Part shown: positions 3,171-23,885 of the stretch, in pieces
Layout: every line of letters starts with the position of its first letter
How positions within the stretch are numbered: the stretch's first letter is position 1
DNA from: a virus
Reading direction: 5' to 3' (one strand)
Length of the DNA: 25,151 bases
IMG/VR virus record: IMGVR_UViG_3300024999_000367
Location: 1 to 25,151 of that record
The notes under the pieces: generated by a model
The model's input: only the letters and a program-made list of their open reading frames with translations
What the model was told of the DNA's origin: nothing
Databases searched by the model: none
Made by a program: the position numbers and the translations under genes

Positions 3171-3818
3171 CTAAAGTAATATTCTTAATAGAGCAGATGC
3201 GGCATTTAATAAATTTTGTTGGGTATTGTTTCCGTATACTAAATTATTTAAACTTGGTAGATCTACTGTAAGGTAGCTTATGCTTGATTCGGATATGACG
3301 GGATTTGTTACAGTAGTACTATCTATAGAAGTTTTACCATAAGTGGTTTGTTTGCTTAGGCATATAAATGAGAATTCATATTTATAAAGGAGAGGTGCCT
3401 GTTTGCTACGCATTAGCCTAAAAGATCTAGGCTGAATTTTATAGTGCTCATTATCTTCCCAATTATGCCAATACAGAAACATATCGGGGTCTTTTGAGGT
3501 AATAAAATTACGGTATATCTTTTCCCTAAAATTAACAAATTCTTGGTATCCATCTAAAACACCATTTTCTTTACTAGGTCTAGATTTATAGCCAGTAGTT
3601 CCTGAAATAGTAACCTCTATTAAGCCTTGACCAAAATCTACTACAAATGCCCCACCTAATGTTTGAACTGTGTTTGACCTAGAAGGTTCAGCTTGACTCA
3701 TATCTTCAGGGTTAACTATCAGAGTGTGCATTTCAACAGAAATACCGCTCTTTTTTATTTCAAAAGATTGGTGATAATTCTGTTTAAGCCTATATGTGGA
3801 ATCATTAACTAATGTCAT
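3171..3818 (-). CDS. Probable baseplate / tail-tube-initiator-like protein
   Basis: This 215-residue protein carries NPEDMSQAEPSR, TLGGAFVVDFGQGL and IEVTISGTTGYK at residues 36-82, and RSFRLMRSKQAPLLYKYEFSF at about 132-152. The run of NPE, a Gly-rich VDFGQG turn and ISGTTG, ending in a beta segment that describes length or units of tail protein, is familiar from small baseplate proteins that cap or start the tail tube in Gram-positive phages (distal tail or XkdP-like N-terminal domain). It lies between the spike and the wedge genes. It has AAGGTGA before ATG 3818. The assignment to a named family is tentative; a structural baseplate role is likely. Confidence 0.6.
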   Translation of the reverse strand: MTLVNDSTYRLKQNYHQSFEIKKSGISVEMHTLIVNPEDMSQAEPSRSNTVQTLGGAFVVDFGQGLIEVTISGTTGYKSRPSKENGVLDGYQEFVNFREKIYRNFITSKDPDMFLYWHNWEDNEHYKIQPRSFRLMRSKQAPLLYKYEFSFICLSKQTTYGKTSIDSTTVTNPVISESSISYLTVDLPSLNNLVYGNNTQQNLLNAASALLRILL

Positions 3819-3840
3819 TATTTCACCTTCTTCATATTAT

Positions 3841-4404
3841 CTAGGACACTGGGTGAGTAACATTAAGATCCCCTAAGGGAAGTTGTACTTCCACATTCCC
3901 AGTGGGGTGGTATATATTTATACCCCCTGCAGTTATTTCTATATAGGCTGGGGGAGTGCTACCATCTGAAGAGGTAGGAAAATTAAACCTAGAATGAGTT
4001 GGGGTAAGTTCCATATATGCTCGTTGATCTTGTTTAGAGTCGTCTAATAAATTTTCTGAAACATCTTGTTCTATCTGATGAATAGGAAGTTGTACCCTTA
4101 TTAAATCCTTTTTGACTTGTATAAAGTTGGTGCTATAACTACTATTTTTCATATATCCTATTAAATATGGCCTATCCCCTCTACCCTCCATATATCCTAT
4201 TAATACCATATCACCTTCCACAGGTTCTCTATCAATATCTCCTATAACCCAAACTGGACAAGGAACTCCATAATCTAGGAATACCACTTCTATCCTTCCA
4301 TATTTAGAGTAGTCTCTGGTACTAGTAACTCTACCCATCTTAGGTTCTGTAAAATTAGGTAATCTATGAATTTTAAGTGGACCTAAATTACTTTGAAGTG
4401 TCAT
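3841..4404 (-). CDS. Baseplate spike / OB-fold protein (gpV / gp5 N-terminal type)
   Basis: This 187-residue protein has the OB-fold signature of contractile-tail spike proteins: MGRVTSTRDYSKYGRIEVVF at residues 23-42, then PCPVWVIGD, PVEGDMVLIGYMEGRGDRP and YLIGYM. This is the pattern of P2 gpV / T4 gp5 N-terminal domains, which sit at the tip of the tube under the hub. The C-terminal part (YMELTPTHSRFNF, IEITAGGINIYHPTGNVEV) reads as short beta strands, consistent with the start of a trimeric spike. There is no lysozyme domain and the needle region is short. The gene lies ten bases after the hub gene, with GAGGTGAT before ATG 4404. The OB-fold call is firm. Whether a separate tip protein exists is unknown. 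Confidence 0.8.
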   Translation of the reverse strand: MTLQSNLGPLKIHRLPNFTEPKMGRVTSTRDYSKYGRIEVVFLDYGVPCPVWVIGDIDREPVEGDMVLIGYMEGRGDRPYLIGYMKNSSYSTNFIQVKKDLIRVQLPIHQIEQDVSENLLDDSKQDQRAYMELTPTHSRFNFPTSSDGSTPPAYIEITAGGINIYHPTGNVEVQLPLGDLNVTHPVS

Positions 4405-4414
4405 ATAATCACCT

Positions 4415-6097
4415 CTATTTTTTCAGTATCATACCAACTTGTATAACATTTGCGTTTGTTATGTGAGGATTGTTTTCTATAATTGTATTATATAAATTTC
4501 CATTCCCATACCACTGCGTTGATAATCCCCACAATGTATCCCCCTTCTTAACTGTATAATATTCACTGGGGGAAGGGGTTGCGGGTTCTATAGTAACATC
4601 AGACGCAGTGATGGTGACTACAGGTAAAGTAGTAGGAGTTTTACCTCTAGTAACTGATAGAGTAGTAGACCATCCTTGATATAACTGAAAATTCTGATGA
4701 ACTGCTTCTATATAGAACTCATGTTCTATTCCAGGGCAAGATAATACTTGACCTACTTTATAGCTACCTTTTCCTCTACATTCTATAGTGCCAGACCAGT
4801 ATTTATTATTATTTTGGTACCAGGATTTTAAAGTAGAACTTAATGATCCCACCATAGTTTGTAAGTTTTGAGCATCACTGCTAGCATTAGATAAAGAAAA
4901 ATCTAATCCTTGTAGAGTTACTTCTAATGGGGATAACCCATATCTGTCCATATTTTCTGAATTATATACCGGGGCTATAAGCATTTTTAGATCTGTAACT
5001 ATTCCACTGAGCATATCCCCTGCCCAGAATAGGTTAAAATTCTGATCATCACTAGTCTCTAATTCTTCCGTTATTATATCTTCGGCTAATAACTCATGCT
5101 TTTTTAACCTATTCCACATATATGGGTCAAATGGGGTAGTTCTCAATGCTAATACTACTTTGGAATTATCGTCTCCAAAGGTTTGAGCCGGAGAAGGATA
5201 GTAATTATTACTTGTAGGATCATTAAGGGCTTTCTCAGGTCCACTAGATTGCCCTATTGTTTCATTAACAATCATAGGGCTGGAGATGTCGTTCCAAGAT
5301 TCAATATTGTCTCTAGTATCAATAAATAATTCCATGAAAGGTTTCATACATAATTTTTCTAATAAGTTCCATAGACTTCCCTCGTAAGATTGTAAAGTTA
5401 GTATAGAAGGTATTAAAAAATTAAATTTTGCTAGCACATATCTTATTATCTGTTGTGGATTTATTTTTTTAGGTACCGGGGATTGTAGAGTTTCATCCCA
5501 TACTGTCCAGGTTATATTAGCCATTTTAGTAAATATCCTACACATTATACTGTCTATTAAGTCTGCAGGAGTACCTGTTGAAGAGCTAACATTTTTACTA
5601 GAAAAGAAGGTTTCTAATAAGGCAAAATATCCCTCTTGGGCTATAGTACCAACTTCAGAATTTAATTGGGGATAGAACTTTAACATAGGTTTAATCAGCA
5701 TTTTCCCCATATCCCTACCTGAAATAGTTGTGTTGACATCTGGAATGCCTTCATTATTCATCGTTCTGGTACGTTTAACTCTATCCACCAATCCTACCAT
5801 AACAGTATCCAGGACATCTTGTCCCTGATATCCCATGCTTATAACAACTAGATCATTGGAGGTTACTTTATAAATCCATTCATCTCCCACTAGGTTTATA
5901 ACAAAGTACCCAGCGGGACTATCAAGTGACTTATTAGTGACTACAGATAAAAGCTGGTAGCTGGGGTCTAATTTTTCATTAAAATCTCTTTTAGTACCAT
6001 ATATTTGATAACAATCATAAGGAGTATGAATACTTACCCTTATTAGGGGTAAGTATCTTTTTCCATTTATAGTTAATCGGTGTAAATAAGAACCCAT
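4415..6097 (-). CDS. Baseplate hub protein with C-terminal LysM domain (XkdQ / gpD / gp27 type)
   Basis: From ATG 6097 this is a 560-residue protein. The body resembles the late-control-D / XkdQ hub family: LNEKL-type strands early, ISGRDMGKMLIKPML near residue 125, and GSYKVGQVLSCPGIEHEFYI and VHQNFQLYQGWSTTLSVTRG near the end. Such proteins form the trimeric hub that carries the spike. Residues 510-560 are a LysM domain (YYTVKKGDTLWGLSTQWYG, then IIENNPHI and IQVGMILKK), which could bind peptidoglycan or pack within the hub. I chose ATG 6097, with GGGTGG seven bases upstream, over an in-frame GTG at 6130 that overlaps the tape measure gene and has no good binding site. In many relatives the LysM is on a separate protein. 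Confidence 0.85.
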   Translation of the reverse strand: MGSYLHRLTINGKRYLPLIRVSIHTPYDCYQIYGTKRDFNEKLDPSYQLLSVVTNKSLDSPAGYFVINLVGDEWIYKVTSNDLVVISMGYQGQDVLDTVMVGLVDRVKRTRTMNNEGIPDVNTTISGRDMGKMLIKPMLKFYPQLNSEVGTIAQEGYFALLETFFSSKNVSSSTGTPADLIDSIMCRIFTKMANITWTVWDETLQSPVPKKINPQQIIRYVLAKFNFLIPSILTLQSYEGSLWNLLEKLCMKPFMELFIDTRDNIESWNDISSPMIVNETIGQSSGPEKALNDPTSNNYYPSPAQTFGDDNSKVVLALRTTPFDPYMWNRLKKHELLAEDIITEELETSDDQNFNLFWAGDMLSGIVTDLKMLIAPVYNSENMDRYGLSPLEVTLQGLDFSLSNASSDAQNLQTMVGSLSSTLKSWYQNNNKYWSGTIECRGKGSYKVGQVLSCPGIEHEFYIEAVHQNFQLYQGWSTTLSVTRGKTPTTLPVVTITASDVTIEPATPSPSEYYTVKKGDTLWGLSTQWYGNGNLYNTIIENNPHITNANVIQVGMILKK

Positions 6098-15040: not shown

Positions 15041-16480
15041 TTAAATTGCAGGTAAGAAACCGGGGATAGTGGCTTGAATATTAGTAAACCGTACCCATTT
15101 CCTCGGAGCGTAGATAACGGGTACTCCATACAGCAAGATCATCCAACGAATAACCGGACCAAGAGTAGCTAGATCCATCTTCATCATAGGAGCCAACTGC
15201 TTAAAGGAAATAACTTCTGGTGACATCTCACCCATAAATGCAGTATAACTGTTCGGCATAGTGGTATTAACATCATTCCAAGTAGTATCAGCACTGGCAT
15301 TGGAGGAAGTTACCGCAAATTTAGCAATTTCATAATACTTACTGCCACCGGCCTCAGTACGATATACTCGAACAAATTCTACTGGGAATGCCGAACTAGC
15401 AGGGTTAGTAATAGTCAACGGAACATGCTTTTTCACATCTGCAGAAGCAAATGTTACAGTAGCAGCAGCAGAAGGTACGGATTCCCCATACTTATTACAG
15501 AAGGTGACAGCGTATTTAAATACCCCTCCAGTAGGAGCAGATTTGGCAAAATCGCCATCAGTGCCAGCTAATGCACCAGCAGCCAGAGTACCTACAGCAG
15601 GAGCCTGAGGACTAGAAGCATTACTACCCATAGGTCTGGTCTTAGACAGGAAGATATCTGGGTTAAACTCAACCTCACCACCATGAGTCATAAACTTGTT
15701 AACTACTACACCAGCTTGATACCCACCAGTTTGAGTAGGAACAATAACACGCTCTTTCGGGAAGAATTGCTCACTAAACTCAGCCATTACTTCAAACGGT
15801 ACAAAGATGTCTGTTGGGGTACCATAGTTTTGCAGAATGATCTGAGCACCCCAGTTAATGTGCTTTTCTTCCATATAGGAACCCTTAAGGTCGATAGTAT
15901 TAGCAGAGTCAATAAGTTTATTAATACCATCAAACTCCACACCTTCATTACCACCAGGGGCTAACTTACTATCGCCCCAGAACAGTCCCAACTCTAACTG
16001 TTTTAACAGCCAAAGGATACCGTCTTGGTTCTGACGAGTGATTACATTACCAAATGCACTATTAACTAATGTCATCGGGTGGGTGACTTCACGAGTTGTA
16101 CCAAGAAACTTGACAAATGCTGCCTTACGAGCATAAGTGGAGTCTTGGGTATTAGGCAATGCACCCTCACCGACAAACGCCCCTGCACCTACCGAACCAT
16201 ATTCTTGCAGTTGTGCGTATTGTTCCACAGTGTTGTATGCAGGCATTTTAGGAATTTTTTTCCAGAACTTAATATGCTGATCTGTATATGTTACGACCTT
16301 CAAACTATTTTCTAAAGATTCTACCCGGAATACAGAACCACCTTGAAATTGTAGGGGGTCCGTAGTATATCCTGCTTGTAACGCTTTATTAAGGTTGTCC
16401 ATTTCACCTTCGCTGGATAACCCAAAACCCTGGAATCCAGGTACGCCCTGGTAATCCCCAATTCCTACCATATTGTACAT
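15041..16480 (-). CDS. Major capsid protein (SPO1/A511-like type) with inserted Ig-like domain
   Basis: This 479-residue protein has the features of the SPO1/Listeria A511 type of capsid protein: GY.TDP and GGSVFRVESL near residues 37-56, YTDQHIKFWKKIPKMPAYNTVEQY, GLFWGDSKL with GVEFDGINKLIDS (165-192), NYGTPTDIFVPFEVMAEF (218-235), and a closing GEMSPEVISFKQLAPMMKMDL and APRKWVRFTN. Residues about 290-412 form an added beta-rich region (GGVFKYAVTFCNKYGESVPS, VEFVRVYRTEAGG) that reads like an Ig/FnIII-type domain, as also occurs in related capsids. It assembles into the icosahedral shell after cleavage by the protease. ATG 16480 has GGGAGGTG eight bases upstream. Residues 33-65 are copied in the protease C-terminus (see findings). 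Confidence 0.95.
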   Translation of the reverse strand: MYNMVGIGDYQGVPGFQGFGLSSEGEMDNLNKALQAGYTTDPLQFQGGSVFRVESLENSLKVVTYTDQHIKFWKKIPKMPAYNTVEQYAQLQEYGSVGAGAFVGEGALPNTQDSTYARKAAFVKFLGTTREVTHPMTLVNSAFGNVITRQNQDGILWLLKQLELGLFWGDSKLAPGGNEGVEFDGINKLIDSANTIDLKGSYMEEKHINWGAQIILQNYGTPTDIFVPFEVMAEFSEQFFPKERVIVPTQTGGYQAGVVVNKFMTHGGEVEFNPDIFLSKTRPMGSNASSPQAPAVGTLAAGALAGTDGDFAKSAPTGGVFKYAVTFCNKYGESVPSAAATVTFASADVKKHVPLTITNPASSAFPVEFVRVYRTEAGGSKYYEIAKFAVTSSNASADTTWNDVNTTMPNSYTAFMGEMSPEVISFKQLAPMMKMDLATLGPVIRWMILLYGVPVIYAPRKWVRFTNIQATIPGFLPAI

Positions 16481-16503
16481 TTATAGTACACCTCCCAAAT
16501 TAA

Positions 16504-17253
16504 TTAACCTTTTAATAGTGCTTGCGCTGAAGGAGATAAATATCTAGGGTCTCCTAAGGACTCATAGGAAACAATATCTTGAGCAGTTACACCCTTATTA
16601 CCATATAGGCCATCAGTAAGGATAGTCATAGCTTGGGATTTAGTAAGAGTTTTAGGTTCATTTTTACTTTCCCCAGCACCAATGCTATCCTTAAATGATT
16701 TTTCTACTACACTAAGAGCAGCCTTACGTCCAGTAGGCTGAGACTCTAGGTTTGAAATACGCTTGTTTAGTTTGCCTAAAGATTTGGCCAACTCACCCTG
16801 AGTCTCTAGAATGGCTCTCTGTGATTTCATCATGATATTAAGGGACTTATTAAGAGTATCCGAATATTGGTTAGAAGCTTCCATAGATTTACCTAAATCC
16901 GCCCTTTGAGCATCAATGAGGGTAGAAATACCATTTACCAATTCACTGAGAAACTCGCTGACTTCCAGGGCCTTACGTACATTATCTTTACTCTCCAACT
17001 CTTCTACTAGAGATTTTTCTACTGGCTCATCTTCCTCTTCATTTTCCCTATCATACTCATCACCATCTGGCTCTTCATGCTGTTGATCCTCATCTTCTCT
17101 ATCGTCCTCTTTGTCATCTACTTCATCGGATACTTCACTGGGCATGGGGTCTCTGTCATTCATGGCTTTTTTAACATCTTGCTCATTAGTATCCTCAAGG
17201 ATAGAATCAATTTGTTCTAAAGACTTACTAATAATTTCATCAATTTTAGCCAT
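16504..17253 (-). CDS. Capsid scaffold / prohead core protein
   Basis: This 249-residue protein lies between protease and capsid genes, where scaffolds lie. It has a very acidic stretch at about 35-80 (SDEVDDKEDDREDEDQQHEE), then a long helical region likely to form coiled coil (SKSMEASNQYSDTLNKSL-like heptads, LGKLNKRISNLESQ) and a C-terminal segment (LTKSQAMTILTDGLYG). Acidic, helical composition and position are the evidence; scaffolds rarely have strong sequence motifs. It would fill the procapsid interior and be cleaved or released during maturation. ATG 17253 has GGAGGTG nine bases upstream. Confidence 0.8.
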   Translation of the reverse strand: MAKIDEIISKSLEQIDSILEDTNEQDVKKAMNDRDPMPSEVSDEVDDKEDDREDEDQQHEEPDGDEYDRENEEEDEPVEKSLVEELESKDNVRKALEVSEFLSELVNGISTLIDAQRADLGKSMEASNQYSDTLNKSLNIMMKSQRAILETQGELAKSLGKLNKRISNLESQPTGRKAALSVVEKSFKDSIGAGESKNEPKTLTKSQAMTILTDGLYGNKGVTAQDIVSYESLGDPRYLSPSAQALLKG

Positions 17254-17267
17254 TAAATAGGCACCTC

Positions 17268-18008
17268 CTATAAGTGTTTGCTGATGAAGTCCATAGACTT
17301 ATCATAAGACCATCCCTTAATTAATTGCAAGTAAAGAACTAGCTCTTTAGTGGAAAAAGATTTTTTAGTACTTAATTTATCTTGTAGTATCTTTTTCTTA
17401 CCATCATCCCCTATTACATAAGAGAGGTTATGTAAAGCATGTTCTAAGGATTCTTGTCTGAATACTCCACCACCCTCTAGCTCTAAAGGATTAGTTTCGT
17501 ATCCCGCTTCCAATGTTTTTAATAAAGTGGAAGTGTTGAATGATTTCACTACTACATCCCAAGTACACTTAGTATTAACAGGATTGGAGGTAATGGCGAC
17601 ATTATATATTTTAGCTTTCAAAATACGACCTTTTTCTCTTTCTAAAACTTTACCTTCCACTGAAAAACCTAACCTTCTAGGGGCATCTGACTTCTTTAAG
17701 GCCACTGCTAATTCCCAGATATCATCAGCAGGTTTTATACCTTTTAATAATTCACCCTCTACAAAGAATCCCTTATCATCTACTTTACAAGTAGGATATG
17801 GATAACCCAAAATAACTGAATTATCGTGATCGTGGTTAAAATACCCGTAATTAATAAAATCCGTGATATCTAACCCTTTTTGAAGTAAGCTTTCATCTTG
17901 TCTATCTTCGTGAGGGGTGGATGCGTAACCCCTAATAGTACGTTTTCCGTCGTATTTAGATTTTTCTAAGTCTATATCTGCTGTTATAGAAAAAGTAAAA
18001 TCAGACAT
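17268..18008 (-). CDS. HK97-type prohead protease with capsid-arm-like C-terminal extension
   Basis: This 246-residue protein has the U35/HK97 prohead protease core: RTIRGYAS at 23-30, His59 in YFNHDHD, LGYPY, Ser116 in RRLGFSVEGKV, and YNVAITSNPVN (135-145), where the family has a conserved E/S-x-V-x-x-P-x-N. His59 and Ser116 are the expected catalytic residues. The core ends near residue 157. After it comes a segment (165-197) that matches the major capsid protein arm at 18 of 33 positions, including AGY, GG, VFR and ESLE, and then a helical tail (STKELVLYLQLIKGWSYDK). It processes scaffold and capsid proteins. ATG 18008 has AGGGGGTG upstream. The tail is unusual and is discussed in the findings. 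Confidence 0.93.
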   Translation of the reverse strand: MSDFTFSITADIDLEKSKYDGKRTIRGYASTPHEDRQDESLLQKGLDITDFINYGYFNHDHDNSVILGYPYPTCKVDDKGFFVEGELLKGIKPADDIWELAVALKKSDAPRRLGFSVEGKVLEREKGRILKAKIYNVAITSNPVNTKCTWDVVVKSFNTSTLLKTLEAGYETNPLELEGGGVFRQESLEHALHNLSYVIGDDGKKKILQDKLSTKKSFSTKELVLYLQLIKGWSYDKSMDFISKHL

Positions 18009-18061: not shown

Positions 18062-19654
18062 TTAAGAATATTTCTGTTGGATAGAATCACTTAACTGGTT
18101 ATCTTGTTGCTGTTCAGATGCTTCTTCTTCATTCAAGGGCTTGCCATCTTGCCCAGTGGGATTTCCATCTTCATCTAAGGGATTTCCATATTCATCTACC
18201 TGTTGCTGCCCTTCTCCATCCCCTTCTTCCCCCATACCCTGCTGTTGCTGTTGTTCCATTTGTTCGGCTTGTTCTTTCTGTAAAATATAATTAGTGTATG
18301 TGGGATCGAGTATAATATCCCCACCGTCAATAGGAGGATCATCATTTTCCTTACGTATTTCATTTATAGTTTTACGGGTACGTACTAACTTTTCATTCAA
18401 TTCTGCCCTATCATGCTCAGTCTCTTGATCAAGTCCTATAAAATTAAATACATATTCCTTAGAAAATCTGTATATAATATAGTTGTTGATAGTGTCTTCT
18501 ATAAATCTGAGGAGTGGGCGTAAACCTTTATCCTTAGAGTTCTTTAATCTGGATTCCATACCGCCCTCCATAATACCTCCACCACTACCCCCACTACCAC
18601 CACGGTTCGGGAAGTTTATCTCAGCAGGATCTATTTGAAATACTGCCGAGCTAATGTTTATAAGATAATTCATCCAGACTTCATATTCCATATCTCTATT
18701 GGATTGACTTACATTTAAATATTCTAAACCCTCAACTGATACCACTGGAGTCTTCCATGCTCCAGTCATACCAGATACTTGAGCAGTCCATTGTCTACGA
18801 AAAGAGTCTAATTGTTCTTTCTGTAAATTGGCCCCCTTTAAGTTTAGAATACCTTTAGTAGTACCTCCTTGAGAGAAAAACTTAGAGTTATACTCCTCAG
18901 CCCACAAATGGGCAGTTATCTGGTGTATTAATTGTTCCAGTTCACTAAACCCATAAGGTTGTATAAGAATATCAGTACGGGGGTTACGTACTGCAAAAGC
19001 TAGTTCTTTGCCATCAAATTCTGCAGTAACGGCTCCATTAATCAACTGTACCCATTTAATCTTTGCGGCATTGACTCTAGATTGAGTGAGTTTCTTATTG
19101 TCTGGTATCTCTTCCGATACATCTGCTGCTCTAATGGTAGCAGCATCTACCGCATAAAACTCTGCAGGTCTGTCTAATCTATCGGGTACAATCTCGAAGG
19201 TTAATTGATCATACGTTAACGAATCTCTAACAATTTTACGTAAAAAAGAATCAAAAGAATCCCTACTAGGATCGTATTTATACCCACAATTTTCTAAAAA
19301 AAGTTCCATAGCTAAAATAATTTTACGTTGCTTATCATCAGGACTCTTTTTAGGGTCACGTAGCCTTATCTCATAGCCCACATTATCCTTAGAGAATCTA
19401 GCTGGTCTAGAAAAAGCGGATATCTGATTAACTCTAGTAGTAATGATAGAGGCTACCACTGCATTTCTAGCAGCCATCCGTTTTAAAGTATCATAAGATA
19501 ATGAAAAAGGTCTGTCTTTATACCCCATAGAGGAAATTATAGTTAAAGGATCTTCCACTATAGATCTAGAAGGGCTTACTGCTTCTGATTTTCGTAAATC
19601 AGTATCTGGGGTATTATTTCTGCTTTTATTAAACCAATTGCTCCAGAATGCCAT
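18062..19654 (-). CDS. Portal protein
   Basis: This 530-residue protein has the order of portal motifs: [20 protein letters not shown] at about 63-82, [52 protein letters not shown] and [19 protein letters not shown]. It forms the dodecameric ring at one capsid vertex through which DNA is packed and released. A Gly-rich loop ([13 protein letters not shown]) and a long Gln/Glu-rich C-terminal tail ([13 protein letters not shown] and three DxGxPx units) follow; the tail looks disordered and is beyond the usual portal core. The gene is 11 bases after the Lys-rich gene with AGGGGG upstream and is followed by the protease, the standard order. Confidence 0.93.
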
Positions 19655-20690: not shown

Positions 20691-23600
20691 CTAAAAATAA
20701 AGGAGTAAATCTAATTCATTCTCGGATTTACGGGTGGTTATTTCTTTCTGGATCTGATTAACATGAGTAAGAGTGTCCTTATCCACGTAATCCCCTCTAT
20801 TAAATAGACGCTGAACTATAGATGAAGTAACTGGATTATTCTTTAGATTGTGATAGTGAAATTCAGCATATTTATGTTCATCCGAGAGGGGTTTATAGGA
20901 ACCAGGGCTAAATCCATTTGCTATATGCTGCTCCTTGTGGTCTAAAGATTCCTTGTACATACCCTTTACCCATTTATTAAAGGATAAGGGTTTATCTGGC
21001 TTATCTTCTCTATATTTTTTATAGGCATTTATTGTATTAGCATAATATTCTGTAGTAGTAGAAAATAGTTCCGCCCCATGACCAGATTCCTTACCAGGGG
21101 TTCCATAAATTCTCCCTTGATAGCTATCCGCCCATTTATCTACATAATAGAGTCTTTGCTCCCCGTTAATAGTATGAATCTGTAGTTTTCTATTCCCATG
21201 CTCATCCACTGCCGCCCAATAAGCCTTAGTCAAGGAGTCCCCGGATAACCTAGGCGGTAGGTATTTATTTTCTTTTATATTCCAAGTATTAGAAGATAAG
21301 TAGTGACCCGACAAAAAGTGGTGAACGGCATGGGCAAATTCATGCGATAAATTACTACCTAAAGACCAATGCTTGTATCCTCCCATAGCATTCATTGGAC
21401 CCTTTACATGTTGACTATGATCCTTGAAAATATCACTACCTTCTAAATAGTGACCAGGTAAATATACACTTCTGCTGTAAGGATTATAGTGAGCACCATT
21501 TTTAGTCTGAAACTTAAATGCAGAACCCTTGCCTATAACATCAGTAAATAAATCAAATGGTACAAAATCTAAAGATTGATGTATATGTCTAGCCAATTCT
21601 GGTGTCTTGTTATTCATATTGTGTATCTTGTCAGCATCTTGTACAGATATTCTAGTAGATATTAAATCCCTACGTGCTTCAGACCTTTGTTCTGGAGTCC
21701 ACAATCTGCCTGATTGTTGTAATACCCAGGGATTATGCTCAATTACATGATGCGTGGTATTTTTATCCTGAACTATATAATGATCCCTTGAATGAATCAT
21801 ATAATCATTAGCATTTTTCTGCTTACTTTTTTCAATTAGGTGTCCATACCTAAATCTGTTAAAATTATCGTCCACCCTAATATTTCCATGATCATCTACT
21901 TGTATATCGGATCTAGCCATCATTTCATCTAGAATAGAGGAAGGTATATTAGATAAATGACTTAGTCCCATTAGATTAGTTACAGCATCATTATCGGTCC
22001 CTATAGCATTCCTTGTCTCATCCCTTAATCTACGGGCCACAGCTGGAGTGTATAACTTGTCGAACTCATCAGTATTTAAATTATCATTATTAAGAGCCTT
22101 TTCTAATTTACTAGTAATTCTACCTAAACTCTGTTCATGTAAGGGGTTCTTAAGATGATCTATCAATTTATTTACCCTATCCGTGGTATACTCTTTTCCA
22201 GCAGATTTACCTGTTTCCAAGTTTTTAATATGAACCTTGAATTTTTCTTCCTTATTATCATCTAGATACAATTCAGCATTTAATTCAGCATCAGCACCAT
22301 TCCTAATGACCTTTCCTGAATATTTTACTCTATTACCTGTATATTCCTCCTGTAGACCCCCGGTAAAACTTAACTTACCTACGTCCTCTAAAAATGACTT
22401 AATGTCTTTATTTTTATATCTTTTAGAGAAATGACCCCAAGTTTCGTTACGTTTTTTCTCTTTCCCTATAAAATCTACGACATCCTCCATAGGTATTGTT
22501 TTTTCTTCAAATTGCCCTTCCTCATCATTCACTATAGATAACATATGTTTTCCATTTTTCTCCACAATAGATGCCATGGATGCAATGCCCCAGGACCATC
22601 CATTAGGGATATCCGGGTCTTTAACAGCTCTAGAGTCACTATTACCCCATCCAGTAAAATGACGTATAACAGACTCTAGATCATTAGTACTTATCTTAAC
22701 ACTACCCAATTTCTGTTTCTTAAGCATATCCTGTATTTCGGGTATTTTATCTGGGTTCTTTATAAAGAAATCCTTAAGAGCAGTTACCTTATTTTTGTGT
22801 AAAATAGCTGGATGGTCGTTATGCTCCCAGGTTAATTGTTTTCCATATTTCTCAAGTAGTCTTAATTTATTCTCCTTGGAGATTGGTACCATAATCTCAT
22901 TGACTCTTCTTTGTGTTTCTTCACGTTCCCCTTCCGTCTTAGACTTCTCCAGTCCTAGTATTTCCGGATTTTTAACTAAATGTCTAGCTAATGCTGAAAA
23001 GGCACGCATTCTAGTAATAGCATGCTCTTTTTCATGAGGAACATAATCTATATTATGCTCTTTAACCATTTGCCATTTTTGATCTTCAGTTTTACCCTTT
23101 AATACATCATCTACATCTTTAGCTAATCCAGTCTTATTAGATTTCCCAGTAGGTTTTTGAGTAGATTTTTCGGATACCAAATCCTCCGGTTTATGTCCTG
23201 TCGTTGGTTTATCTTCCCCAGTCATTAAATGTGGATTCTTGCCTAAATGATCCTGCATTTTCTTGTATCTGGACATGTGGTCAATCAGTTCATGGTCTTT
23301 GTGTTCATATTGTAAGCCATGTTTCTGAACAAATTCCCGTACATGCTGTTTAAACTCCTCTTTGCCTAACTTTTTCTTAAGAAAATCCATATAATCTTTA
23401 GCGTTAGTATGAACTTTGTCTTCCTGAGGGACACTTTCTTTAGGTAAATGCTCAAATCCTTTACCCAAAACATGAGGATTATCATGTAAAAACTGAGTGA
23501 GTGCCATGATAGCATTAATCCTATCCTTTTGAGGACTTTCATGCTTATCCCACTCAACACCATGTTTTTCCAGTAATTCAGTTTTCTGCCTAGGTTTTAA

Positions 23601-23885
23601 GGAGTTCATATACTTCTTTATTGCTTCTTTTTGTGATAATCCTTCATAAGGATTATCATTAGATATATAATGATGGGTAGGGGAATTATTAGAAAGCATT
23701 CTAGGTTTATTACCAACAGGAATCTGTTTTCTAGGCTTTATACTACTGACTGGCTTACCATTAGGCAATACCCACTGCATGCGATAAGTAGTTCTACCAT
23801 CACTATGACGTACTGCTACCCTGCGTTGGATAAGTCTTTCTTTATGTAAAACATGCACTTTTGATAGGTCTATGTATAATGACAT
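20691..23885 (-). CDS. Large virion-type protein: four tandem repeats and C-terminal HEXXH metallopeptidase
   Basis: This 1064-residue protein has several parts. Residues 1-39 are a module shared with the Lys-rich protein. Residues about 95-384 hold four repeats of 48-58 residues (hallmarks KHG-x-x-W-x-x-H and FL-x-x-NP-x-x-LG). Residues 400-700 are of unknown fold, with FTGWGNSDSRAV and WSWGIASMAS. The C-terminal part has HEFAHAVHH at 848-856, a zincin HEXXH motif, with Glu939 and Glu946 (AELFSTTTEYYAN) as candidate third zinc ligands. There is no signal peptide. Its position ahead of the portal gene suggests a head-packaged protein that could be ejected into the host, or a factor acting in head maturation. 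Start ATG 23885 has GGCGGTGA upstream. Family unknown; the metallopeptidase reading is good. Confidence 0.75.
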   Translation of the reverse strand: MSLYIDLSKVHVLHKERLIQRRVAVRHSDGRTTYRMQWVLPNGKPVSSIKPRKQIPVGNKPRMLSNNSPTHHYISNDNPYEGLSQKEAIKKYMNSLKPRQKTELLEKHGVEWDKHESPQKDRINAIMALTQFLHDNPHVLGKGFEHLPKESVPQEDKVHTNAKDYMDFLKKKLGKEEFKQHVREFVQKHGLQYEHKDHELIDHMSRYKKMQDHLGKNPHLMTGEDKPTTGHKPEDLVSEKSTQKPTGKSNKTGLAKDVDDVLKGKTEDQKWQMVKEHNIDYVPHEKEHAITRMRAFSALARHLVKNPEILGLEKSKTEGEREETQRRVNEIMVPISKENKLRLLEKYGKQLTWEHNDHPAILHKNKVTALKDFFIKNPDKIPEIQDMLKKQKLGSVKISTNDLESVIRHFTGWGNSDSRAVKDPDIPNGWSWGIASMASIVEKNGKHMLSIVNDEEGQFEEKTIPMEDVVDFIGKEKKRNETWGHFSKRYKNKDIKSFLEDVGKLSFTGGLQEEYTGNRVKYSGKVIRNGADAELNAELYLDDNKEEKFKVHIKNLETGKSAGKEYTTDRVNKLIDHLKNPLHEQSLGRITSKLEKALNNDNLNTDEFDKLYTPAVARRLRDETRNAIGTDNDAVTNLMGLSHLSNIPSSILDEMMARSDIQVDDHGNIRVDDNFNRFRYGHLIEKSKQKNANDYMIHSRDHYIVQDKNTTHHVIEHNPWVLQQSGRLWTPEQRSEARRDLISTRISVQDADKIHNMNNKTPELARHIHQSLDFVPFDLFTDVIGKGSAFKFQTKNGAHYNPYSRSVYLPGHYLEGSDIFKDHSQHVKGPMNAMGGYKHWSLGSNLSHEFAHAVHHFLSGHYLSSNTWNIKENKYLPPRLSGDSLTKAYWAAVDEHGNRKLQIHTINGEQRLYYVDKWADSYQGRIYGTPGKESGHGAELFSTTTEYYANTINAYKKYREDKPDKPLSFNKWVKGMYKESLDHKEQHIANGFSPGSYKPLSDEHKYAEFHYHNLKNNPVTSSIVQRLFNRGDYVDKDTLTHVNQIQKEITTRKSENELDLLLYF
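22734..23603 (-). repeat. Four tandem protein repeats inside the 1064-residue gene
   Basis: The repeats cover residues 95-142, 168-222, 258-312 and 327-384. Matching cores are LLEKHGVEWDKH, VQKHGLQYEHKDH, VKEHNIDYVPHEKEH and LLEKYGKQLTWEHNDH, each followed by a helix with A-x-x-AL-like residues and by FLHDNPHVLG, HLGKNPHL, HLVKNPEILG or FFIKNPDKIPEI. Linkers between repeats vary in length and are charged. The repeats are diverged at the DNA level, so they are old. Confidence 0.75.

Follow-up and report, generated by a model that had tools for sequence, protein, structure and literature searches.

A copy of the major capsid protein N-terminal arm in the head maturation protease of SPO1-type and other phages, and its possible role as a docking tag

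The DNA analysed here, which we call the window, is a stretch of 25,151 bases that constitutes the record of an SPO1-type virus. Its minus strand, which carries all the head genes and features described below, encodes in the order of transcription a portal protein, a prohead protease, a scaffold protein and the major capsid protein, as identified by comparison with Pfam, PHROGs and solved structures. The portal gene (18062–19654; Pfam Phage_portal, E = 1.9e-22) is the upstream neighbour of the protease gene (17268–18008), whose 246-residue product belongs to the head maturation protease family PHROG 1028 (E = 1.2e-93). The scaffold gene (16504–17253) encodes 249 residues that match the head scaffolding family PHROG 15087 (E = 8.7e-45). 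The last gene (15041–16480) encodes a 479-residue major capsid protein (PHROG 752, E = 1.5e-142), which is related to the solved SPO1 capsid protein Gp6.1 (9vel) both in sequence (phmmer, E = 3.7e-216) and in fold (Foldseek, E = 8.5e-61, 69% identity); it is a Herelleviridae (SPO1-type) capsid protein with the HK97 fold. Upstream of the head genes, an open reading frame of 1064 residues (20691–23885) had as its sole match PHROG 23829, a family of unknown function, with six matched stretches.

The two proteins were modelled with AlphaFold (five models), using alignments drawn from the window and viral-contig sequences only. In the protease model, the catalytic core (residues ~21–145; 17574–17948) was mostly well predicted (pLDDT ~70–96 by blocks), and its best Foldseek match was the T4 gp21 protease (5jbl, E = 8.8e-4, probability 1.00), followed by herpesvirus assemblins (E between 0.04 and 0.2), so the model predicts an assemblin-like fold. 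H61 and S116, which are invariant in 15 and in 42 sequences, are candidate catalytic residues. After the core, residues 148–172 were modelled with low confidence or as disordered, a stretch that includes Lys164 (17517–17519) and the start of the segment that concerns us here; the second half of this segment was modelled as a helix (185–199). The C-terminal tail (residues 200–246; 17271–17411) was predicted to be helical (202–213, 220–230 and 235–245, pLDDT 77–89), in agreement with an earlier reading of this DNA made from the sequence alone (hereafter the sequence-only reading). The capsid monomer model was HK97-like, with low confidence at residues 31–62 (arm pLDDT ~40) and a helix at the corresponding ESLE segment (55–63). 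Low confidence for both arms is what would be expected in single-chain models if their ordering needs a partner, and the models suggest that both are probably short linear segments of this kind.

The sequence-only reading had proposed that the end of the protease copies the N-terminal arm of the capsid protein, and the coordinates and counts that it gave were exact: residues 165–197 of the protease (17418–17516) and residues 33–65 of the capsid protein (16286–16384) align without gaps and are identical at 18 of 33 positions, with AGY, P-L, GG, VFR and ESLE as shared blocks. BLASTP widened the match to residues 162–197 and 30–65, respectively (20 of 36 identical, E = 4e-10), and a comparison of the profiles of 42 proteases and 39 capsid proteins placed it at the same site (E = 7e-13). 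The observed local score of 103 was far above the maximum of 53 reached among 200 shuffles. The likeness was also detected with family profiles: the capsid family PHROG 752 matches the tail of the protease, the protease family PHROG 1028 matches the capsid arm, and the protease of the window matched the solved Gp6.1 of SPO1 (E = 2e-9). When the 37-residue protease tail was compared with 2.3 Gb of phage DNA, capsid proteins of the SPO1 group were recovered at about 6e-9, and most of the matches with E ≤ 10 were proteases and capsid proteins of the same families. The two matches outside head genes (E between 2 and 7), a hypothetical protein of Salmonella phage FSLSP004 and an unannotated stretch of Variovorax phage VCLv21, are probably due to chance. 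This search rules out chance or a common helical motif as the source of the likeness; the occurrence of such a motif in unrelated phage proteins, which would have removed the proposed link, was not observed. The conserved arm pattern in these families is K-[SATG]-[FLM]-x-[TA]-G-[YH]...[DG][AG]-x-A-[LF]-R-x-E-x-L; pattern scans with a single protein or with the whole family proved too strict. The arm profile matched only two places in the whole window, and neither lies in the scaffold, which carries no copy. Mimicry of the scaffold by the helical tail of the protease, which has an LTKS-like start, was also considered and was ruled out by hhalign, which gave a probability below 1% for similarity between protease tails and scaffold.

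The distribution of this feature was evaluated in head operons drawn from 20 phage records and from uncultivated viral contigs, which provided 103 distinct protease/capsid pairs, including that of the window, from Herelleviridae, Phabquatrovirus-like, Thermus and uncultivated phages. In 99 of these pairs the best local alignment joined the C-terminal half of the protease with the N-terminus of the capsid protein. Two of the four exceptions (L072 and L085) have truncated proteases, yet match at the same arm, and in a third (L125) the match again falls on the arm, within a long fusion protein, leaving L123 as the sole true miss. Among the Herelleviridae, the copy was found in SPO1-, A511-, K-, phiEF24C-, LP65- and Bastille-type phages; it was also found in the group of Bordetella PHB04, Aeromonas ST4 and Pseudomonas Dolphis, in Thermus phages (with a weak match in Lalka27b), and in uncultivated clades such as L136–L161. 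A separate uncultivated clade repeats the within-phage likeness, for example GLQAGVSTAGIANEGTTGGAAIRKQDLE in comparison with GLAGGVSTAGIAIDGTTGGAALRVQSLD. Weak or degraded matches were observed in Mecenats66, in CM1-like phages and in some relatives of L146–L152. In 12 complete genomes, the arm profile matched exactly two places each, the protease and the capsid protein, and a third copy, sought in these genomes in portal, scaffold and decoration proteins, was not found. The Thermus phage Cumys is too divergent for the arm profile, but its protease and capsid protein align directly. In contrast, the proteases of HK97, D3 and T5, which have the same protease–capsid gene order, did not score against their capsid proteins above shuffled sequences (20, 349 and 57 of 500 shuffles, respectively, reached the score). 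Hence, the likeness is not a general property of protease/capsid pairs, and its presence sets the pair of the window apart from HK97-like pairs that lack the copy. A protease that ends in a copy of the capsid arm is real and is general in SPO1-like phages (Herelleviridae) and in several other phage groups.

Some of the operons showed particular arrangements. In CM1/Bastille-type phages (L088–L091 and L095–L103), the R-x-E of R-x-E-S-L has been lost from the protease arm and kept in the capsid arm, which indicates for the CM1/L088–L091 clade that a full match is not required everywhere. In L125 (IMGVR_UViG_3300032069_000347), a 502-residue open reading frame (3754–5259) comprises the protease core, the arm (AMAKSLCAGYETDTAKKTDGGALRKESLEG) and a scaffold-like helical domain; this protease–scaffold fusion resembles the herpes arrangement and has the arm where the two parts join. 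The capsid reading frame of the same contig (5315–8413) continues into helicase-like sequence for a total of 1033 residues and is open at the contig end; it may be a genuine fusion or the product of a faulty assembly. The 534-residue protease gene of L123 (4004–5605) has a catalytic domain that seems to be interrupted by an intein-like insert (NCFPGDVRVS...VHNC). For the phages Eldridge (L006:3501–4214) and Bp8p-C (L005:3501–4208), the annotated protease begins ~200 bases after the beginning of the homologous reading frame, and the true start codon is therefore probably upstream of the deposited one. In the Thermus phage Lalka27b (L130:8716–9085), an annotated CRISPR repeat array and a TnpB-family transposase adjoin the head genes.

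If the copies had evolved separately after a single ancient duplication, the protease arm should be no closer to the capsid arm of its own phage than to those of others. We observed that, among 37 representatives, the mean identity between both arms was 0.497 within the same phage and 0.323 across phages, and none of 20,000 permutations reached the observed excess (p < 5e-5). A four-point comparison gave 631 for the own-phage pairing versus 29. This co-variation is visible in private signatures shared by the two arms of one phage, such as TAGDPHALD in the Thermus phage Cumys (TAGDPHALDPKSGLTGVPAIRRESLE and TAGDPHALDFKAGLSGVPAIRLESLE) and HGGTDQ in L100 (SMTTGYEHGGTDQ and SMTTGYNHGGTDQ); the arms of L122 have a private signature likewise (HGEGFPLRAESLE and ASGEGFPLRIESLE). 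In addition, the conservation profiles of the two arms are correlated (Spearman 0.83). The natural reading of the co-variation would be that a shared binding partner selects on both arms, and the fact that the two copies change together over evolution suggests that the arm is an address tag for building the protease into the shell that it cuts. The copy is family-wide, is confined in complete genomes to these two proteins and has co-evolved at the protein level; the mimicry of the capsid arm put forward in the sequence-only reading is therefore well supported.

To define the boundaries of the shared unit, the own-phage excess was followed along the alignment of the 37 lineages. The seven columns on the N-terminal side of the Lys that lies before the arm (P10–P2) had no excess (z = 0.6), whereas it was high from +1 to +24 after this Lys (z = 7.6–9.3) and weakened by +33 (z = 3.7). 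Thus, the abrupt end of the similarity described in the sequence-only reading holds upstream, apart from the Lys itself, but downstream the likeness fades over ~9 residues. This Lys is found directly before the arm in 100 of 100 capsid proteins and in 97 of 100 proteases, with a small residue after it and a hydrophobic one next; the protease residue next to the Lys position is S, A, G or T in 99 of 100. In the capsid protein of the window, it corresponds to Lys32, invariant in 15, 39 and 100 sequences, which ends a predicted propeptide (residues 1–32; 16385–16480) with cleavage predicted after it; in the protease, Lys164 is the predicted P1 residue of a self-cleavage site. The solved structures agree with this assignment. 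The mature chain of phage 812 (9row) contains 439 of 463 residues and lacks the first 24, so it begins just after the equivalent Lys24. Chain B of SPO1 9vel has 445 residues, the length that remains after Lys23 of 468, an agreement of lengths only. The A511 capsid protein presumably loses 23 residues, in agreement with the Lys boundary. Judging from the lengths in solved structures, the Lys before the arm is probably the capsid maturation site. Our literature search found no Herelleviridae capsid protein with a directly sequenced N-terminus; the sequencing reported for phiEF24C concerned a different protein. Since the own-phage excess occurs only after the Lys, the shared unit consists of the Lys at the presumed cleavage site and the arm that the mature shell retains.

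From these results, we consider it fairly probable that the capsid arm copy of the protease is functional and serves as a docking tag, and that the protease cuts at the Lys in both the capsid protein and itself. The protease arm would fill the site of a capsid arm in the precursor shell, contacting a neighbouring capsid subunit and/or the scaffold, and this docking would admit protease molecules to the interior of the assembling shell in limited numbers. Once active, the protease would cut the capsid protein after Lys32, releasing the 32-residue propeptide, and would cut itself after Lys164, which would detach the catalytic core from its anchor. We infer both the docking partner and the self-cleavage at Lys164. 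Docking accounts for the data better than self-cleavage alone because what the two proteins share is the mature arm, over 24 or more prime-side residues, and not the propeptide. Self-cleavage is also plausible given that the same Lys precedes both arms at the apparent capsid maturation site, and a single mechanism could comprise both. In procapsids of 80alpha, the N-arm of the capsid protein contributes a strand beneath the P-domain, and the helix of this arm is located within the shell, touching the C-terminal helix of the scaffold (PMC5744158); a protease that bears the arm could be accommodated likewise. The report on D3 extends this N-arm/scaffold arrangement to P22 and phi29, and gives ~90 protease copies per procapsid for D3 and ~60 for HK97 (PMC12749128). 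Virion proteomics detected the protease in two arm-bearing phages, at the level of the protein and not of the part of it that is present (PMC5618024, PMC3601020). Whether this represents a widespread principle in tailed phages with separate scaffolds, by which the protease would be admitted as a pseudo-capsid subunit and would release itself with the cut that matures the shell, seems to us an evenly balanced question.

Other processes might account for the likeness between the arms. A single gene separates the two genes within their operon, and the arms of one phage resemble each other more than they do those of other phages, as would be expected if repeated DNA copying between neighbouring genes held them alike. 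However, the codons at identical residues agreed in 281 of 593 cases, in comparison with 266.6 expected from codon usage, with no clear case of excess, and there were no near-identical DNA tracts among the 37 representatives. The absence of an excess of shared codons indicates that the arms are kept alike by selection and not by copying of DNA; the codon test rules out gene conversion in these representatives, and we regard it as scarcely credible. Accordingly, duplication within one operon, as advanced in the sequence-only reading, fits as the origin of the copy, but recent copying is not supported. It is very improbable that the segment is an inert relic, that is, a capsid N-terminus that was duplicated long ago, was joined to the protease and is kept as a linker with no selected function. 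Its position between two folded parts, its modelled flexibility and its degeneration in some clades would fit a relic, but conservation of the arm extends to very distant phages, and its co-variation with the capsid arm is seen at the protein level without gene conversion, which is not expected of one.

A different target for the arm might be the protease itself, through an exosite or autoinhibition. Both arms would then be parts of an extended substrate fitting the same groove or exosite on the catalytic domain, and the arm in the protease would serve for self-cleavage or as a pro-segment for temporary self-inhibition. This explanation predicts the same lineage co-variation as docking and is consistent with the presence of the same Lys followed by a small residue before both arms. 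Related proteases of the clan, such as T4 gp21, HK97 gp4 and herpes assemblin, also process themselves. Nevertheless, the likeness covers 24 or more prime-side residues, far past the usual footprint of an active site, there is no likeness in P10–P2 apart from the Lys, and the scaffold, also an expected substrate, has no copy; as weaker evidence, AlphaFold leaves residues 148–172 unstructured and not confidently packed on the core. We favour docking over this explanation, which we judge unlikely, because the shared part is long and entirely on the prime side, but both may be true at once. Somewhat doubtful, rather than unlikely to the same degree, is a narrower form of docking, whose probability therefore overlaps with that of the general one, in which the arm binds only the C-terminal helix of the scaffold and the protease is brought in with the scaffold core rather than on the capsid lattice. 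The contact between the N-arm and the C-terminal scaffold helix in 80alpha (PMC5744158) and the natural protease–arm–scaffold fusion of L125 are in line with this form; on the other hand, the scaffold C-termini differ strongly between subgroups while the core of the arm is conserved.

For the questions of how many protease molecules enter each prohead and how they are restrained elsewhere, which concern most phages, a co-evolving arm offers a concrete, mutable address tag in well-studied phages such as SPO1, A511 and phage K/812. The copy predicts the location of the protease, provides a ready-made peptide for cargo loading into large HK97-fold shells, and, as a segment of 37 residues, also predicts the pairing of capsid proteins and proteases in metagenomic contigs.

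Several known systems resemble this one in part. Encapsulin cargo-loading peptides are C-terminal tags that direct enzymes to an HK97-fold shell, a likeness drawn from the general description only; to our knowledge, the known ones are short and are not copies of a shell segment. The HK97 gp4 protease reportedly has encapsidation domains. It is similar to the protease of the window in gene order and function, being encapsidated in limited numbers and acting inside the prohead (PMC12749128), but, like those of D3 and T5, it has no similarity to its own capsid protein. The motif recognized by Prp in the 80alpha capsid protein, the scaffold and ribosomal protein L27 is also a short sequence shared around a processing site (PMC5744158). 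With Prp, the shared sequence is centred on the scissile bond, lies mostly in the removed part and is cut by a host protease, a pattern not found here, where the shared arm is retained and one of its bearers is the protease. A limited search of the literature found no earlier report of a similarity between a protease and a capsid arm, although one may exist. The closest parallels are lambda gpC/Nu3 and herpesvirus UL26/UL26.5, in which a C-terminal segment of the protease is shared with the scaffold and is used for incorporation into the shell; in HSV, the C-terminal 25 residues are said to be required. As in these systems, the segment described here is shared with an assembly partner and lies C-terminal to the catalytic domain. 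Unlike them, the protease tail is not homologous to the scaffold: in lambda and herpesviruses the shared part is the scaffold, produced from a nested gene or transcript, whereas here it is the mature arm of the capsid protein, encoded separately. A protease that shares a scaffold domain was thus already known, and the sharing of the capsid arm itself appears to be new.
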